NCBI GenBank assembly: GCA_030622125.1
Contig: JAUXGM010000025.1
Span: 1-19,887 of the forward strand
Direction of reading: 5' to 3'
From: a bacterium
Lineage (GTDB): Bacteria > AUK180
Length of the DNA stretch: 19,887 bases
In this document: positions 8,285-19,887 of the stretch, in pieces
Layout of the letters: each line of letters begins with the position of its first letter
How positions within the stretch are numbered: the stretch's first letter is position 1
Translations under genes and position numbers: made by a program
Notes under the pieces: model-generated
What the model saw: only the letters and a program-made list of their open reading frames with translations
Database searches by the model: none
What the model was told of the DNA's origin: nothing

Positions 8285-8303
8285 CCATCTTTAGACAAAA
8301 TCC

Positions 8304-8451
8304 GAGACACATCTCAACTTTCTTGGGACGCACCTGAACATCCGAGGTATGTCCCGCTTGTTTTCTGAGTTTGTATTTGTCTTTTTTTCATTGTCAATTG
8401 TCCATTGTCCATTGTCAATTGTATTCGGTAATGTCCCTCTTTTATTGGGAT
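8304..8451. repeat. REP-like hairpin element, degenerate and interrupted
   Basis: Read on the minus strand, this region contains a hairpin with arms 8325-8335 and 8345-8355 (GGGACGCACCT / AGGTATGTCCC, 9-nt loop). It also has a diverged arm at 8304-8321 matching the 19744-19761 arm, and a segment at 8431-8451 matching 19701-19721 (reverse complement of CCCAATAAAAGAGGGACAT). The pieces are in the same order as in the intact copy at 19701-19761, but are separated by a satellite insertion at 8388-8422. Confidence 0.65.
8388..8422. repeat. TCATTGTCAATTGTCCATTG satellite, copy 1
   Basis: An internally repetitive tract of 7-nt words (TCCATTG, TCAATTG). Its first 21 nt are identical to those at 10599-10619, in the same orientation. 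It splits the REP-like element at 8304-8451. Confidence 0.75.
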
Positions 8452-8520
8452 ACGGAATTTAATATTGTTTTTAACTAACCTCCAACCTCTAACATCTGTA
8501 TTTTTCCTTGAACCTTCCTA

Positions 8521-8624: not shown

Positions 8625-8652
8625 ATTATACTGAAAAATCAATAAAAGTCAA
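8625..8652 (-). promoter_or_regulatory. Promoter of tRNA-Ser
   Basis: TTGACT (8652-8647) and TATAAT (8630-8625) with a 16-nt spacer; initiation would fall about 10 nt before the mature tRNA 5' end at 8608. The -35 hexamer contains the TGA stop codon (8651-8649) of the upstream BMC-P gene, so the promoter is embedded in the end of the BMC operon. Confidence 0.8.
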
Positions 8653-8921
8653 GAAGTCGGGCGATATATTTCGTCTATTATACCGCAGATCGTAATATCA
8701 GACGGCGGTCTATTGCCGGTTAACATATCAACGGCTTCCTTCCCTTTAACAAGCAAAACCGTTTCACCGGCACCGGCACCCATCTTATCAACAGCAATTT
8801 GATAATCACCACTTTCACTTCCATCTGCGTTTAACATCTTAATTATTATCAATTTCTTTCCTATTAATCCGGGTTCACATCTTGAAAGTGTGACTGAACC
8901 GATTGCTTTTCCTATGTTCAT
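8649..8921 (-). CDS. BMC-P (EutN/CcmL) pentameric shell vertex protein, second copy
   Basis: A 90-residue protein of the EutN/CcmL family, whose pentamers cap the vertices of bacterial microcompartments. It begins MNIGKAIGSVTLSRCEPGLIGKK, in which the family strand pattern IGxVxxxxxxxxLxGxKL is visible. It continues with VDKMGAGAGETVLLVKGKEA and ends with the ITICGIIDEI strand. It is clearly different from the other BMC-P at 13453, so the shell may use two vertex types. The ATG is in an ATGA overlap with the rpiB-like gene, so the two are translationally coupled. It is the last protein gene of the BMC operon; its stop codon is inside the tRNA-Ser promoter. Confidence 0.94.
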   Translation of the reverse strand: MNIGKAIGSVTLSRCEPGLIGKKLIIIKMLNADGSESGDYQIAVDKMGAGAGETVLLVKGKEAVDMLTGNRPPSDITICGIIDEIYRPTS

Positions 8922-9532
8922 CTCTCCACTATCCTAACACCGAGATCAAATGCTATTTCTTTGGCAAGTTCCGTTATAATCGCAGCTTTTTCATAATAAA
9001 CGACCTTTTCATTGCTTCTGGAAGCCAACCTTATATCATCACCGGTTATTAACCGTTTTGGCGGAGCAGTATATTTTTCCACTTCTTTTAAATTTGCCTC
9101 TTCAAGTCCAATGATCTTATTTACACGACGCTCGTGTCTACCGCCACTGAATTTCGTTTCTAAAAATTTTTTTACCATTTCTTTTGCAAGGACATCACCC
9201 GTCTGCCCTGCTCCAAAAACAATTATATTGGCATTGTTATGTAATCTTGCACTCTCTGCCATAAATAAATTATTGCAGGTTGCTGCTCTTATTCCCTGTA
9301 TCTTGTTTGCAGCTATGGCAGAACCGATCCCAATGCCATCGATTAAAATACCATAAGGAAAGTTTCCCTTTGCAATCTCGAACCCAACTATTGCAGCAAT
9401 GTCAGGGTAATCAACACTGTCGGGTGTGTAGGTTCCAAAATCCCTGACCTCATATTCTAACGATTCAAGATAGGTTATAAGTTTTTTCTTTAACTCAAAA
9501 CCGCCATGATCACTACCTATTGCTATTCTCAT
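8918..9532 (-). CDS. RpiB-like sugar-phosphate isomerase with C-terminal EutQ/EutT-like extension
   Basis: Residues 1-150 are a ribose-5-phosphate isomerase B (RpiB/LacAB) domain: GSDHGG at 6-11, VDYPDIA at 40-46, IAANKIQGIRAATC at 73-86, ARLHNNANI at 95-103, and the phosphate-binding GGRHERRV at 130-137. Where RpiB normally has GILICGTG, this protein has GILIDGIG, with Asp65 at the usual catalytic Cys. At 204 residues it is about 55 longer than standard RpiB. The extra part (159-204) reads RLITGDDIR then KAAIITELAKEIAFDLGVRI, which resembles the N-terminal LITANDIR/IITPEAREVADLLGF segment of EutQ and the start of EutT-type proteins. RpiB homologues inside BMC operons mark the sugar-phosphate-utilising (SPU) class. 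It lies 9 nt after BMC-T and overlaps the last BMC-P by ATGA. The exact substrate cannot be read from the sequence. Confidence 0.88.
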   Translation of the reverse strand: MRIAIGSDHGGFELKKKLITYLESLEYEVRDFGTYTPDSVDYPDIAAIVGFEIAKGNFPYGILIDGIGIGSAIAANKIQGIRAATCNNLFMAESARLHNNANIIVFGAGQTGDVLAKEMVKKFLETKFSGGRHERRVNKIIGLEEANLKEVEKYTAPPKRLITGDDIRLASRSNEKVVYYEKAAIITELAKEIAFDLGVRIVER

Positions 9533-9541
9533 AATTCATTC

Positions 9542-10099
9542 CTATAATAAACTTCTTTTAATCTCTTCAGTCGGAGCCGGAATAATCTTGTATTGAACAA
9601 GATTGGTATTTCCCTTTAAAAAATCAACTGCTGTCATAACAGATGATTTAACTGCTCCAATCTCACCTGTTAATATAAAATACGCCTTGCCGCCCAATGC
9701 TTTTCCAAGACGCATATCAACAAGTTTTACCTGTGATTCCTTGCATGCAAGGTCTGCTGCTTCCACACATTTAATAATGGAATAACTCTCAACAATTCCG
9801 AGCGCATCCATTTCCGAAAGTGTAACATTCGGAACTCCAATAAGCCCATTTAATACCATATCATGAATATTTGGAATAATTGAATACTCCAAAACAAAAT
9901 CCTTGCCAAGAGTAAAACCGTTTTGAACTGCTTCCTTTACTGCCTGAGTATCACCTGAAACGATAACAATATGCTTTCCCGGACAGACAGGATAATTATC
10001 AAGCAATTTAACATTACCGCCTTTGACCATTTGATCCGCGCAACCTATTCCATCGGCGATACTGTTAAATTCTACCAATGCTATTGCTTTGTTGTTCAT
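9542..10099 (-). CDS. BMC-T tandem-domain shell protein, PduT-like
   Basis: A 185-residue protein with two BMC folds in tandem (about 4-90 and 98-180), the arrangement of trimeric BMC-T shell proteins. It aligns well with PduT: IALVEFNSIADGIGCADQMV, VCPGKHIVIVSGD, then a second domain starting MDALGIVESYSIIKCVEAAD. Cys39 in VCPGK corresponds to the PduT pore Cys (Cys38) that holds a [4Fe-4S] cluster at the threefold axis. PduT works with PduS, which is encoded just upstream, to carry electrons across the shell. A GGAG ribosome site lies 7 nt before the ATG. That site is squeezed between the start codon and the left arm of the inverted repeat around the four-helix-bundle gene, which separates this gene from pduS by 614 bp. 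Confidence 0.93.
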   Translation of the reverse strand: MNNKAIALVEFNSIADGIGCADQMVKGGNVKLLDNYPVCPGKHIVIVSGDTQAVKEAVQNGFTLGKDFVLEYSIIPNIHDMVLNGLIGVPNVTLSEMDALGIVESYSIIKCVEAADLACKESQVKLVDMRLGKALGGKAYFILTGEIGAVKSSVMTAVDFLKGNTNLVQYKIIPAPTEEIKRSLL

Positions 10100-10114
10100 T
10101 CAAAAGCTCCGGTA

Positions 10115-10149
10115 GAGGTTAGAGGCTGGAGGTTAGAGGTTAGTGAAGA
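10115..10149. repeat. Left arm of 35-bp inverted repeat around the four-helix-bundle gene
   Basis: The plus strand reads GAGGTTAGAGGCTGGAGG and continues to 10149. Its reverse complement matches 10687-10721 at 33 of 35 positions. It is made of GAGGTTA-like words followed by GTGAAGA. Confidence 0.85.
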
Positions 10150-10154
10150 CATAA

Positions 10155-10523
10155 TTAACTCCTATTATTTTTCTTATTTTTTAATGAGTTCCGTAATCCA
10201 GATAGCATCTTTATAATTTCAGTTAAATTTTTATTTAATTCCTCATAGCACTCATCTTTAATATATTTTAATTCTTTTGAAACAAATAATTGGTACTTAA
10301 GTTCAGCAGCAGAACTCTTTGAAATGCTTATAAAACGCACAAAATCCTTAGTGCTTTCTCTGTAATTTCCTTCCAATAAATTTGAGCCAATTGAAATTAC
10401 TGCTCTTCTCATTTGAGAAACAATTCCATATAGTTCCTCTTTTGGAAAATGTTTTGTTATCTTATAAACACTTAGTACCATTTCATTTATTTTATTGTAA
10501 ACATCTAAATCTTCAACACTCAT
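10155..10523 (-). CDS. Four-helix-bundle protein (23S rRNA intervening-sequence protein family)
   Basis: A 122-residue helical protein with the hallmark of the S23/IVP four-helix-bundle family: ITKHFPKEELYGIVSQMRRA at about 22-41, then SIGSNLLEGNYRESTKDFVR (about 45-64) and SSAAELKYQLFVSKELKYI. Relatives include the ORFs inside 23S rRNA intervening sequences and the Avd accessory protein of diversity-generating retroelements. No reverse transcriptase or variable repeat is in the window. It has its own AAGGAG ribosome site 8 nt before the ATG. It interrupts the BMC operon between pduS and its PduT-like partner and is enclosed by a 35-bp inverted repeat, so it looks like a later insertion. Nothing indicates a BMC function. 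Confidence 0.9.
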   Translation of the reverse strand: MSVEDLDVYNKINEMVLSVYKITKHFPKEELYGIVSQMRRAVISIGSNLLEGNYRESTKDFVRFISISKSSAAELKYQLFVSKELKYIKDECYEELNKNLTEIIKMLSGLRNSLKNKKNNRS

Positions 10524-10686
10524 TGCTAATCTCCTTCTTTATTTTGTTTCTTTTCTTTTCACTATCCTCTAACCTTTCACTTTCTCTTTTTTTTCTCTTC
10601 ATTGTCAATTGTCCATTGTTCATTGTCCATTGTTTTATTGCCTCTAACCTCTTCTTCTGCGATTTCTATTTTCTTTACTTTTTTTC
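10524..10686. other. Repeat-filled spacer inside the four-helix-bundle cassette
   Basis: No gene. It contains partial copies of the arm motif (TTCACTATCCTCTAACCT at about 10557-10574, CCTCTAACCTC at about 10641-10651), pyrimidine-rich tracts, and a second TCATTGTCAATTGTCCATTG satellite. It looks like an accumulation of intergenic repeats. Confidence 0.7.
10599..10633. repeat. TCATTGTCAATTGTCCATTG satellite, copy 2
   Basis: The first 21 nt are identical to 8388-8408 and the rest is built from the same CATTGTCCATTGTT words. It lies within the inverted-repeat cassette. Confidence 0.75.
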
Positions 10687-10721
10687 TCTTCACTATCCTC
10701 TAACCTCCAACCTCTAACCTC
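10687..10721. repeat. Right arm of 35-bp inverted repeat around the four-helix-bundle gene
   Basis: The plus strand starts TCTTCACTATCCTCTAACC; 33 of 35 positions match the reverse complement of 10115-10149. The arm overlaps the last codons of the pduS-like gene and contains its TAG stop (10716-10714). Confidence 0.85.
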
Positions 10722-12036
10722 TTTTTATTATCTCAACAAAATTTTCACCAACTTCCGCAACCGCTCCGTCAATTGAGCTATGGTAATCTACACCAAGTTC
10801 ATCTTCCTTTGAAATTGCTATAATATCACCCTTTTTAACTTTATCATCTTTTTTAACAATGATACTTGACGGTTTGCCTATGTGTTGATCGGTATATATT
10901 CGAACAAGATCAATATTCATACCGAATTCTTTATATTCCGGATGATGATCAAATTTTTTTATATCAAGGTGGTCCATCAATCTATCCGAATTGATCTCTC
11001 TAAGATCATAATACGATCTTGTAGCTTCGGGATTATTATGATAATGTTCATTTTTGATTTCCTTTTCCGTCATAGTTTTCTTAAATATCTGAGCGACCAA
11101 TCGCGGTGATATATCCATCGGACAAGCAAAAAGTTCGCATACACCGCATTCGGAACATAGAAATGCCATCTCATTCGGAGTAAGTTTGGAAAGAGCGAGA
11201 TTCCGCATCCATTTATGCGGCTCAATCCCATGCCCATTTAAATAACGGGGGCAAAGATCGGTACATCTACGGCATTGGATACAGGCAGATCTTGCTATCT
11301 TAATAATAGCATTTATATCACGATTTCTCTGCCTTATTACCTTTTCGTATTTAGAAAGAATAATTATTCCCGATGTTGTTTTTTTTACAAAACCGGTTGG
11401 TTCTACAAATTTTCCCATCATTGGACCGCCGTCAATGATCACTGCATCCGCAAGTGGAATATTAGGTGATGCAATGTCAAGAAGATATGCAACCGGTGTC
11501 CCGATAGGAACTTTTGTGATGTAGGGATATTTTACATCTCCTGTTACAGTCAAAAACCTTGTTATGTTCTTTTCATTATATCTTACCATTCTGCCAAGAT
11601 GATACATTGTTTCGACATTTTGAACTATTATGCCAACATTTAAGGGAATACCCGCCTCCGGTATGATCTTTCCCGTAACCTCTCGGACAAGGATATGCTC
11701 ATCACCGACAGGATAAATATTCTTAAGTGGGAAGACCTTAATATCGGAACCAATTTCATTTTTTACCGAATCAATCAATGTCCTGTATTTTCCCTTGATA
11801 CAAATAAATACCTTCTTTGCTCCGGTTAGTTCCGCTGCCTTTTTGATGCCTTCCAATACATCATCAAGATGCTCTTTTAATATCGTTTTATCCGTTTCTA
11901 AAAGCGGTTCACATTCAGCACCATTTATGATCAGTGTATCGATTTTAGTGTTTAATTTGAAATAGGTGGGAAATCCGGCACCACCGGAACCGATAATTCC
12001 CGCTTTTTTTATATCAATGATCCCATTTTTGGTCAT
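10714..12036 (-). CDS. PduS-like Fe-S flavoprotein (RnfC family), BMC-associated NADH-linked electron carrier
   Basis: A 440-residue protein of the RnfC/PduS family. The N-terminal nucleotide/flavin-binding region has GSGGAGFPT at 17-25 and NGAECEPLLETD at 38-49. Two [4Fe-4S] motifs follow: CIQCRRCTDLCP (Cys252, 255, 258, 262) and CSECGVCELFACP (Cys294, 297, 300, 305). The C-terminus carries a biotinyl-like/SLBB-type barrel (KPSSIIVKKDDKVKKGDIIA). In Pdu compartments PduS interacts with the PduT shell protein and accepts electrons from NADH (in that system for cobalamin reduction). No cobalamin enzyme is seen here, so a role in reoxidising NADH from the aldehyde dehydrogenase is more likely, by inference. 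The start is in an ATGA overlap with the pduP-like gene. The last codons and stop lie in the right arm of the inverted repeat. Confidence 0.92.
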   Translation of the reverse strand: MTKNGIIDIKKAGIIGSGGAGFPTYFKLNTKIDTLIINGAECEPLLETDKTILKEHLDDVLEGIKKAAELTGAKKVFICIKGKYRTLIDSVKNEIGSDIKVFPLKNIYPVGDEHILVREVTGKIIPEAGIPLNVGIIVQNVETMYHLGRMVRYNEKNITRFLTVTGDVKYPYITKVPIGTPVAYLLDIASPNIPLADAVIIDGGPMMGKFVEPTGFVKKTTSGIIILSKYEKVIRQRNRDINAIIKIARSACIQCRRCTDLCPRYLNGHGIEPHKWMRNLALSKLTPNEMAFLCSECGVCELFACPMDISPRLVAQIFKKTMTEKEIKNEHYHNNPEATRSYYDLREINSDRLMDHLDIKKFDHHPEYKEFGMNIDLVRIYTDQHIGKPSSIIVKKDDKVKKGDIIAISKEDELGVDYHSSIDGAVAEVGENFVEIIKRG

Positions 12037-13451
12037 ACTATCCTAAATCTATCTACCAAAGCACATCTTCTTATTCTTGTAAAAGTAACAGGGGTTGTGA
12101 TACCCTCTCCTGTTGGTGTTGCGATTGTCATTGATGTAGGACCTTCACCCATATATCCAAGTCCCTGAAGCGACATTCCGTTTTTTACGAAGATCGATGC
12201 ATCGCATTTTTTTGCCATATATGAAAGCCGATCAATGTTTGTAGAGTGCATAGTAAATGTATGCCTGTAATGATGTTCCGTTTCAATTGCTCTTTCTACC
12301 GCTTCTTTCCAATCGTTAACTCTTACAATCGGTAAAATCGGAAGAAGCTGCTCCACCTGAACAAGCGGATGATCCCATTTGACCTGCATAATTGCAAGGA
12401 TCGTATCTTCAGAAATATCTATTCCGGCATCCTTTAATATAATATATGGTGCTTTACCAACATATTTTTTATTTATTATCGGGACCCTGTAACCGGTTCC
12501 TTCATCCTTTGCAATTATGAGTTTTGTAACCCTGTCAATATCGCTTTCCGCAATCTCATAGACCTTGTGATTCTTCATACTTGAAATGAGTTTGTCCGCA
12601 ACGGAATTGACAACAAATACCTCTTTTTCTAAAACACAAACGGTATTATTATCGAATGATGAAGATGTAACTATTGCCTCTGCTGCTCTTTCAATGTCCG
12701 CTGTTTCATCTACTATACAGGGTGGATTTCCAGGACCACCGACTATTGCTTTCTTGCCGGAATGCATTGCAAGTCCAACCATAAATTCTCCACCGGTAGC
12801 CACAAGAAGATTAATATTCTTGTGATTCATTAGTTTTTCACTTGTTTTCTGTGTGGGCTCTTTTATAGAGGTCAGGAGATTTTGAGGACCGCCGACTTCT
12901 ACTGCTGCTTTGTTTAAGATCTCTACTGTTTTGAGTGTTACATTCTTTGCAGCAGGATGCGGATTAAATACCATTGTATTGCCGCCTGCAAGGGCACATA
13001 GTCCGTTACTTAAAACGGTAGATGCAGGATTTGTTGATGGCGTTATTGCTCCTATAACACGATAGGGTGCTCGCTCTTCAAGAACCAATCCATGATCACC
13101 CGTATATACCCTGGGTTTAACATCTTCAATGCCGGGAGTTTTTGTTGTAACAAGACGGAGTTTATCCGCCTTGTCCGGCATTTTTCCCATACCGGTCTCA
13201 TCTATCGCCATCTGTCCGAGCATATCGGCGTTTTTTAATGCAGCCTGTTTTATCGCAGTTAATATTTTATCTCTTTCTTCAAGGGATAGTTCTATGAACT
13301 CCTTCTGGGCTTTTTCTGATGCCTGGATCGCATCATCAATATTATCATAGATACCATTAGATGAAACAGAGATTTCACCGGTAAATATATTCTCTTTCTT
13401 AAATTCTTCAATCACTCTTTTAACTAATTTATCTATATCCTTTTCGTCCAT
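12033..13451 (-). CDS. PduP-type CoA-acylating aldehyde dehydrogenase (BMC core enzyme)
   Basis: It oxidises an aldehyde to acyl-CoA with NAD+ and CoA in the compartment lumen. The 472-residue length fits PduP/EutE. Residues 1-20 (MDEKDIDKLVKRVIEEFKKE) form an amphipathic helix followed by a linker, the typical encapsulation peptide. The catalytic Cys is Cys272 in FDNNTVCVLEKE, and the family motifs ITPSTNP (136-142) and GGPGNPPCIVDETADIE (238-254) are present. It lies 1 nt after the BMC-P stop with GAGGTA as ribosome site, and overlaps the pduS-like gene by ATGA. Acyl-CoA would pass to PduL, encoded at the head of the operon. Chain length and aldehyde identity cannot be decided from motifs. 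Confidence 0.95.
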   Translation of the reverse strand: MDEKDIDKLVKRVIEEFKKENIFTGEISVSSNGIYDNIDDAIQASEKAQKEFIELSLEERDKILTAIKQAALKNADMLGQMAIDETGMGKMPDKADKLRLVTTKTPGIEDVKPRVYTGDHGLVLEERAPYRVIGAITPSTNPASTVLSNGLCALAGGNTMVFNPHPAAKNVTLKTVEILNKAAVEVGGPQNLLTSIKEPTQKTSEKLMNHKNINLLVATGGEFMVGLAMHSGKKAIVGGPGNPPCIVDETADIERAAEAIVTSSSFDNNTVCVLEKEVFVVNSVADKLISSMKNHKVYEIAESDIDRVTKLIIAKDEGTGYRVPIINKKYVGKAPYIILKDAGIDISEDTILAIMQVKWDHPLVQVEQLLPILPIVRVNDWKEAVERAIETEHHYRHTFTMHSTNIDRLSYMAKKCDASIFVKNGMSLQGLGYMGEGPTSMTIATPTGEGITTPVTFTRIRRCALVDRFRIV

Positions 13452-13452
13452 C

Positions 13453-13728
13453 TTATACCTCTTTATCTAAATTTATTGAGTCAATAATTCCAATTATTGC
13501 TGCATCAACAGGGTTATTGCCTTGATAGGTAACAAGCCGAGCAGATGAGCCCTGAACTATCAAAACTATTTCTTTATAACCTGCCTGAACAGAGTCAAGA
13601 CAGACAATTGGATTTCCGATCGGCTTATATTTTAAATCTAACGGTTGAACTATAAGAAGTTTTGTTCCTTCAAGTTTTGGTTCTTTTGCTGTACAGACTA
13701 CCTTACCAATTATCTTTCCTATTAACAT
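13453..13728 (-). CDS. BMC-P (EutN/CcmL) pentameric shell vertex protein, first copy
   Basis: A 91-residue EutN/CcmL-family protein: it starts MLIGKIIGKVVCTAKEPKLE, continues with TKLLIVQPLDLKYKPIG and SVQAGYKEIVLIVQGSSAR, and ends DAAIIGIIDSI. It should close the vertices of the microcompartment shell. It follows an intrinsic terminator-like hairpin by 20 nt and has an AGAGGT ribosome site. Together with the 8649-8921 protein it gives the locus two non-identical pentamers, one near each end of the operon. Confidence 0.95.
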   Translation of the reverse strand: MLIGKIIGKVVCTAKEPKLEGTKLLIVQPLDLKYKPIGNPIVCLDSVQAGYKEIVLIVQGSSARLVTYQGNNPVDAAIIGIIDSINLDKEV

Positions 13729-13747
13729 AATTTTTACCTCTTAAATT

Positions 13748-13773
13748 AAAAAAAAGGGAGAATTTCTTCTCCC
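13748..13773 (-). terminator. Intrinsic terminator or attenuator between BMC-H and BMC-P
   Basis: On the minus strand GGGAGAA (13773-13767), a GAAA tetraloop (13766-13763) and TTCTCCC (13762-13756) form a perfect 7-bp stem, followed by eight Ts (13755-13748). It lies 16 nt after the BMC-H stop and 20 nt before the next start codon, with no evident new promoter after it. Partial read-through would make pduL and BMC-H more abundant than the downstream genes. Confidence 0.88.
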
Positions 13774-13788
13774 CGTTCCATTTACCGA

Positions 13789-14076
13789 TTACTTAGCAGC
13801 TTTATTTAACTTAATAGGAAAGATACCTTCAAGATTTGAATGAGGTCTTGGGATTACATGAACACTTACAAGTTCACCAACTTTTTGTGCTGCTGCTGCT
13901 CCTGCATCCGTAGCTGCTTTACATGCTGCAACATCGCCTCTGATCAATGCCGTTACATAACCACCACCGGTTTTTTCATAACCGACAAGGGTAACCTTTG
14001 CTGCTTTGACCATTGCATCTGCTGCTTCAATGCATGATATTAAACTTTTTGTTTCAATCATTCCTAATGCTTCCAT
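13789..14076 (-). CDS. BMC-H hexameric shell protein (PduA/PduJ-like)
   Basis: A 95-residue single-BMC-domain protein: it begins [20 protein letters not shown] and continues with [18 protein letters not shown]; the third strand reads [20 protein letters not shown] and the end [17 protein letters not shown]. It is the bulk facet protein of the microcompartment. The pore loop is KTGGGYVTA, glycine-only where PduA has a Ser, with a Tyr next to it. A strong GGAGG ribosome site precedes the ATG. It is the only BMC-H in the window and is placed before the terminator hairpin, consistent with a need for high abundance. Confidence 0.96.
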
Positions 14077-14092
14077 TTGAAACCTCCATATT

Positions 14093-14728
14093 TTATTTTA
14101 TTATTCTTCCTTTTTCACCGCTTTTTATTGCAAAAGCGTTGCCTTCATCAGTATCAAGATGAATGGCATCGAAAGATTCATTGCTAACACGAACTACAAT
14201 ATCCTTTATGATCGCACTTCTTTCTGTTTTCACCTCAACATCAATGCTGTCGCCATCCTTGATGCCGAACTTTTCAGCGGTATCGGGACAACAATGAAAA
14301 TGTCTCTTTGCTGCGATAACACCTTTTTTTAATATGACAAAGCCCATTGGTCCATAGACAATACAACCCGGAGTTTCCTCAATATCACCGGACATTCTTA
14401 TCACCGGTTCTATTCCCAACACATAAGAATCACTAATTGATATTTCAATTTGTGTTTCATCTCTCACGGGTCCGAGTACCCTGACCTGTGGGAATTCTCC
14501 TTTGGGTCCTATGATCCGAACGGTTTCTTCGGCAACAAATTGACCGGGTTGAGAAAGATCTCTTACCTTTCTTAATTGGTAAGCGTTCCCAAATAATGTG
14601 TAGAGATCTTCTTTTGAGAGATGTATATGTCGTGCAGAAATCTCGATCAATATTCCCTGTTTATTATATTCAAATTCATTTGCAACCTTTTTTATAAGGG
14701 ACTTGATTTTCTCTTCATCGATACTCAT
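14093..14728 (-). CDS. pduL: PduL-type phosphate acyltransferase (phosphotransacylase)
   Basis: PduL converts acyl-CoA and phosphate to acyl-phosphate, recycling CoA in the compartment. Metal-binding and core motifs are present: [50 protein letters not shown] and [15 protein letters not shown]. From the ATG at 14728 the protein is 211 residues, and residues 1-19 ([19 protein letters not shown]) form an amphipathic helix suited to an encapsulation peptide. A longer frame starting at TTG 14755 exists, but the promoter lies across that part, so the ATG is preferred. No ribosome site is evident and the predicted transcription start falls at the ATG. It is the first gene of the BMC operon. Confidence 0.93.
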
Positions 14729-14734
14729 AAACTC

Positions 14735-14763
14735 ATTATAATAAAATTTCAACAAAAAGTCAA
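14735..14763 (-). promoter_or_regulatory. Promoter of the BMC operon
   Basis: TTGACT (14763-14758) and TATAAT (14740-14735) with a 17-nt spacer, near consensus. Only six nucleotides separate the -10 box from the pduL ATG at 14728, so initiation would fall at or within a base or two of the start codon. It begins about 30 bp after the stop of the DUF4139 gene; no terminator is visible between them. Confidence 0.78.
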
Positions 14764-19600: not shown

Positions 19601-19651
19601 TAGGTGGAAGACTTCAAAAGAAGTTGATAAGGTTAGTGAAGAATACCAGAG

Positions 19652-19726
19652 AATAAGGAAATACGGGAATAAGGAAATAAGTAAAACAATATCAAATTCT
19701 GTACCCCATAAAAAGAGGGACATACC
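19652..19726. repeat. 75-bp direct repeat, copy 1
   Basis: It starts AATAAGGAAATACGGGAATA and ends AAAGAGGGACATACC. It matches 19813-19887 at roughly 65 of 75 positions; the offset is 161 bp. Its 3' end forms the left arm of the hairpin at 19717-19761. Confidence 0.8.
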
Positions 19727-19761
19727 TCAACTTTCTGATTTTTAAAGTTGAGGTGTGTCCC
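19717..19761. repeat. REP-like long hairpin
   Basis: An 18-bp stem: GGGACATACCTCAACTTT (19717-19734) and AAAGTTGAGGTGTGTCCC (19744-19761), with a single mismatch that would be a G-U pair in RNA, around a 9-nt loop. A diverged copy in opposite orientation is at 8304-8451. Confidence 0.85.
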
Positions 19762-19812
19762 GGATTCTTCCTTAGATAACGATAGCCCACCCGAGAACAA
19801 TATAAACAAGGC

Positions 19813-19887
19813 AATAAGGAAATAAGGGAATAAGGAAATAAGAAAAACAATATTAATCTCCGCTCCCCATTAAAAGAGGGACATACC
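19813..19887. repeat. 75-bp direct repeat, copy 2 (hairpin cut by window edge)
   Basis: Same sequence family as 19652-19726, ending exactly with GGGACATACC at the window edge. The second hairpin presumably continues beyond the window. The region 19601-19887 holds no gene. Confidence 0.75.

Follow-up and report, generated by a model that had tools for sequence, protein, structure and literature searches.

S23 genes between inverted arrays of short tandem repeats form a widespread, apparently mobile kind of element

The window examined in this study is the whole stretch of 19,887 nucleotides of contig JAUXGM010000025.1 (assembly GCA_030622125.1; GTDB lineage Bacteria; AUK180), whose genome is here named G000. 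It harbors a microcompartment operon (8649 to 14755) with genes for PTAC, BMC, two EutN-type proteins, aldehyde dehydrogenase, PduS, BMC-T, and an RpiB-like isomerase. A small open reading frame at positions 10155 to 10523 (minus strand) is wedged between the upstream pduS-like gene (10714 to 12036, minus strand; RnfC/Nuo51 domains) and the downstream BMC-T shell gene (9542 to 10099, minus strand; two BMC domains). It encodes a full-length S23/IVP four-helix-bundle protein of 122 amino acids (PF05635, E = 1.5e-37; 128.4 bits against a curated cut-off of 33.8) that is homologous to the solved S23 proteins 2gsc (XCC0516) and 2rld, while its match to the bAvd family is below the cut-off of that family.

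The gene lies between the top-ranked inverted repeat of the window, with arms at 10682 to 10722 and 10114 to 10154 (both minus strand) of 41 nt and 90% complementarity. In the sense of the gene, the 5′ arm (10682 to 10722) is a G-rich tandem array, AGAGGTTAGAGGTTGGAGGTTAGAGGATAGTGAAGAGAAAA, of the heptamer GAGGTTA/GAGGTTG and reads AGAGGTTAGAGGTTGGAGGTTAGAGGATAGTGAAGA, and the 3′ arm (10114 to 10154) is its inverted, C-rich copy. The pduS frame ends inside the 5′ arm (AGA GGT TAG), which supplies its last codons and stop, and the BMC-T gene starts at 10099 behind TACCGGAGCTTTTGA, about 15 nt behind the other arm. A preliminary description had placed 35-bp arms around this S23 gene, matching at 33 of 35 positions and built from GAGGTTA words that recur in the window, and this observation is confirmed, including the 33 matches over 35 nt. 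It had not stated that the arms are period-7 tandem arrays, that similar arms flank many S23 genes elsewhere, far above chance, or that the region between gene and 5′ arm holds further repeats, all on the minus strand. The latter comprise a second heptamer family, ATTGTCC/ATTGTCA (about 10598 to 10636), a part-copy of the inner end of the 5′ arm next to the gene start (10538 to 10575, 84% to 10669 to 10706, repeat family D7), and an isolated GAGGTTAGAGG unit (10641 to 10651). The second heptamer family also flanks another S23 lineage of this genome, on contig C184.

To test for an empty site, as had been suggested beforehand, we compared the junction with related genomes. In four genomes of the same family (G001 to G004; loci L072 to L075), pduS (55 to 64% identical protein) is followed within 0 to 20 nt by the BMC-T gene, with neither S23 gene nor array. 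The cassette, with approximate limits at 10100 and 10722 (minus strand), is therefore most likely a recent insertion; loss in all four genomes is possible but less likely. The earlier interpretation, an IVP-type element placed in the operon without breaking either gene, is thus supported, and we consider insertion at this site highly likely. The preliminary description had also named a finding that would speak against it, namely, that the arm sequence is ubiquitous and unconnected with the gene family. This condition is only half fulfilled, since the arm word is dispersed throughout the genome, but its connection with the S23 family is very strong.

We next analyzed whether the architecture is general. 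In 80 unique full-length S23 genes from about 39 genomes, the two 250-nt flanks form an inverted repeat with a score of 16 or more in 49 (61%), with a best internal period of 7 in 40, 8 in 5, and 9 in 4. Genome contigs were searched with a single protein, several of the analyses used simple gene calling, and the samples are not phylogenetically weighted. In a further sample taken afterwards with the same criterion, 23 of 33 new genes were armed, with period 7 in 11, 8 in 11, and 9 in 1. This sample came from the phyla of two genomes, G046 and the cyanobacterial G053, and is not wholly independent, because the second group includes the cyanobacterial genome of S23 locus L131. Depending on the sample, 30 to 39% of S23 genes show no arms by our cut-off. 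In controls, inverted arms were found in 0 of 28 HepT genes of the same genomes, 0 of 225 random windows in the S23 loci, and 1 of 316 other small ORFs (0 of 76 when both sides are intergenic). Direct repeats between the flanks reached the cut-off in only 14%, against 59% for inverted ones. A rule of 35-nt arms (pentamer × 7 nt) fits the window's own arms but is not claimed, as arm lengths run from 17 to 106 nt (median, 33 nt) and some lineages use period 8 or 9. The other S23 genes of the present genome, a comparison likewise proposed in advance, number three and have weaker inverted words of three other families, AAGTACT, ATTGACA, and CACCAGT. Genome G014 differs from the other genomes seen in having 19 PF05635 matches (contigs C2, C3, C7, C12, and C13), mostly as opposed pairs of short frames 100 to 400 nt apart.

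Repeat and protein travel together. S23 proteins that are at least 60% identical but lie at different insertion sites share the repeat in 76% of 50 pairs, whereas for less similar proteins the figure is 0 to 1.2%. The window's lineage carries GAGGTTR-type repeats in three genera (contig C82 of G000, locus L054 of G003, and locus L070 of G001) and GATGTTA in a fourth copy (L093), while the lineage of C184 carries ATTGACA-type repeats in G000 and G003. Betaproteobacterial, gammaproteobacterial, and poribacterial relatives (L128, L130, and L133) share GAGTGAG. Furthermore, the arms are polar: the sense strand of the 5′ arm has more G than C in 45 of 47 cases and, in the added sample, in 23 of 23 (68:2 in total). 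It could be argued that the arrays are ordinary simple repeats born by slippage and that S23 genes merely tend to lie in repeat-rich intergenic DNA, since heptameric repeats are common in some bacteria, polymerase slippage has been proposed for them (PMC4692102), and the arrays are dispersed. This is strongly disfavored and very unlikely, as other small ORFs of the same genomes are not flanked (1 of 316), the arrays are inverted and polar, and the repeat sequence follows the protein lineage across genomes.

Arrays without a gene are scattered in the same genomes. In G000, the arm word occurs at 76 places within two mismatches, against none in the reversed-pattern control. Related words recur in the window at 8475 to 8497, within a gene-less array copy (8370 to 8504) composed of an ATTGTCC array, the dispersed spacer ATGTCCCTCTTTTAT..AATATTGTTTTT, and a CTAACCTCCAACCTCTAAC array. 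Many gene-less arrays of this genome (window positions 8297 to 8504 and 19645 to 19887; loci L013 to L040) sit in a dispersed mosaic repeat of unknown nature with the words AACAATATTAAA..CCG and ATAAAAGAGGGACATACC. In random stretches (up to 40 kb per genome) of 50 genomes, the density of period-7 arrays was 2.9 per 100 kb in genomes with a good S23 gene and 0.28, about 10-fold lower, in genomes without (9 of 18 against 1 of 25 genomes, P = 3e-4), and no other period differed significantly. The exception is G053, an S23-free genome with two heptamer arrays, which belongs to a phylum in which S23 genes are common (51 of 98 genomes). The sister family Avd was considered as the source of its arrays and rejected, since the Avd genes of G053 have no arms. 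Arrays more than 2 kb from any S23 gene share words with the S23 arms of their own genome (0.26, against 0.08 for other genomes; 0 of 5,000 permutations).

Same-genus comparisons revealed further cases of presence and absence. At one ABC-transporter-like operon site (flanks 97 to 99.8% identical), G001 and G004, of the same genus, have two different S23 elements with different repeats, GAAGTGT and GTACGAA, both starting at the upstream stop codon and ending before the downstream ribosome site. Three other G001 elements are missing in G004: at L091, the site is empty just behind a stop codon; at L093, the 3′ arm has become part of the N terminus of the next gene; and at L070, the array remains without the gene. 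In Nostoc sp. XA010, a 177-nt gene-less inverted-array element interrupts an S23 gene whose orthologues in two other Nostoc are intact, with a 6-bp duplication, GATGAC, and Komarekiella has a similar insertion at the identical position. These gene-less elements (L136, 3040 to 3360, and L137, 3040 to 3340) are about 157 to 177 nt long, carry small hairpins near their ends, and lie at the same codon position (GMT^SQ) of S23 genes in two different cyanobacteria. The GATGAC duplication is the only clean target duplication found; the ends vary between copies and the other junctions are not clear-cut, so that the comparison with insertion sequences or MITEs of a known transposase, with sharp terminal inverted repeats and a fixed-length duplication, points neither way. 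In addition, L126 (2841 to 2945) differs from L127 by a 103-nt insertion with CTAG at both ends and a short heptamer-like stretch in the 5′ flank of an S23 gene. Alternatively, S23 could be a host-beneficial nucleic-acid-binding regulator whose binding sites, the arrays, are spread by selection or gene conversion, the gene being carried around by ordinary recombination. This is in line with some S23 genes and arms kept at orthologous operon sites (L116, L120, L121, and L123; 77 to 80% identity over 2.5 kb) and with the proposal of MacGregor (2015) that a TAACTGA-binding protein is the mobile part (PMC4679880). Presence/absence and swaps between sister genomes, the joint movement of gene and arms, and the insertion of a gene-less copy into an S23 gene itself speak against this alternative, and we regard it as unlikely.

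Where both neighbors run in one direction, the S23 gene is in sense in 38 cases and antisense in 8, a bias that could reflect purifying selection after insertion, and the element often lies just between a stop codon and the ribosome site of the next gene. Six elements were flagged inside host ORFs (L117, L118, L128, L130, L131, and L270), of which L270 was only flagged as inside an 823-amino-acid ORF. In the five others, from two host gene families, the element is in sense and the host frame stays open through the whole element in frame +2, against 1 of 62 other elements. This suggests translation through the element (overprinting), although the cases are related within each host family. Downstream of the S23 gene in L131, the same host gene holds a second stretch encoding RSEERGVRNE..SQLTPTNSS, which looks like a gene-less heptamer palindrome inserted in frame.

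The preliminary description had further raised the question whether the arms pair in RNA and whether the RNA is processed there, which would correspond to an rRNA-IVS-like element whose stem is cut by RNase III to release the S23 message, the arms being selected for pairing. The cassette RNA can indeed fold with the arms paired (z = −5.5), the sense bias fits this model, and known 23S IVS elements have an S23 ORF, terminal complementary ends, and RNase III excision (PMC4990558). However, mismatches between arms that would keep G-U pairs in the sense RNA were exactly as frequent as those that would not (56:56); excision by RNase III itself was not assayed. In-gene copies also keep the host frame open, so that no excision is needed. 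Selection for RNA pairing is thus not supported, and we consider this model unlikely.

Taken together, we are fairly confident that the cassette is one copy of a small mobile element of a widespread kind, consisting of a G-rich array of a 7- to 9-nt repeat, an S23/IVP gene, and the same array inverted. What the sequences demonstrate is this architecture in most S23 genes sampled from many phyla, presence and absence at orthologous sites, co-inheritance of protein lineage and repeat, the fixed polarity of the arms, gene-less arrays of the same repeat in the same genomes, and the bias in direction and position; the remainder is our inference. No movement was observed, and presence/absence, which we read as insertion, could in part be loss. 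In our view, the S23 protein binds the G-rich array of its own lineage on DNA or RNA, which would tie gene and arms together and let gene-less arrays spread as passengers, as REP sequences do with RAYT proteins. XCC0516 is a ring of five four-helix bundles (Lin 2006, as cited in PMC4990558), a shape fit for multivalent binding of a repeated word; binding of the arms was not assayed, and no predicted structure of the window's protein was considered. S23 has no known catalytic site, no transposase lies between the arms, and a reverse-transcriptase mechanism was rejected because no RVT_1 gene was found in this genome. We therefore assume that cutting and joining is done by host enzymes, possibly at replication or transcription forks where the arrays are single-stranded; the enzyme that moves the element is unknown. 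Sense insertion and the ability of the arms to supply a stop codon, a ribosome site, or an open coding frame would make insertions into operons and even genes tolerable. We regard the architecture as secure, recognition of the repeat by the protein as more likely than not, and self-driven mobility as about as likely as not.

S23/IVP proteins have been known since the rRNA IVS work without a function, and heptamer repeats have been catalogued in Calothrix, Nostoc, Xanthomonas, and Beggiatoaceae without a cause. The association described here is strong, cross-phylum, and lineage-specific, and it links the two questions. Searches of full-text papers, which did not cover subscription literature, revealed no report joining S23 genes to heptamer arrays. 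At its furthest, a reading with about even odds, S23/IVP proteins would define a new class of bacterial mobile element whose ends are inverted tandem arrays of a lineage-specific 7- to 9-nt repeat read by a ring of four-helix bundles. Such elements would be the source of many of the heptamer repeats scattered in cyanobacteria and other bacteria, could sit inside genes by overprinting, and would move without a transposase or reverse transcriptase of their own. The association described here may also add to the bacterial elements that insert inside coding genes and stay translatable.

Among known systems, 23S rRNA intervening sequences share the protein family, the ORF between complementary ends, the sporadic distribution, and placement where the host product tolerates it. 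The window's element, however, lies between pduS and BMC-T and not within an rRNA helix (the only Rfam hit in the window is a tRNA), its relatives occur in protein operons or genes, and the arms are tandem 7- to 9-nt arrays shared with dispersed gene-less copies, with no sign of selection for RNA pairing. REP/REPIN sequences with RAYT work similarly, as a single-protein element with lineage-specific ends and many gene-less relatives in the same genome, and gene-less relatives of the arms are dispersed in G000 too. They differ in the unrelated protein, a Y1 (HUH) transposase, whereas the only ORF of note on the sense strand between the arms is S23, and in having a hairpin plus tetranucleotide instead of tandem-array ends. 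Diversity-generating retroelements encode Avd (bAvd), a sister four-helix-bundle family, but four bAvd-family genes from two genomes show no such arms, and reverse-transcriptase-like sequence follows those inspected. In-frame insertion in coding genes is described for the palindromic elements of Rickettsia (PMC10969869) and is seen in L117, L118, L128, L130, and L131, but not in the window's copy, which ends pduS. The Rickettsia elements are about 150 bp long and are not heptamer arrays, and no mention of an S23-encoding form was found. Finally, the heptamer repeats of cyanobacteria, Xanthomonas, and Beggiatoaceae (STRR, GGGAATC, and TAACTGA) are likewise intergenic period-7 arrays, and the tandem, dispersed, and intergenic character of the cyanobacterial STRR type holds for the arrays studied here. 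In Xanthomonas, they often form convergent inverted pairs (70 to 75 pairs; PMC4692102), and Xanthomonas campestris also has the S23 protein XCC0516, whose flanks were not examined. No gene was linked to these repeats in the papers found, whereas here a protein family is.
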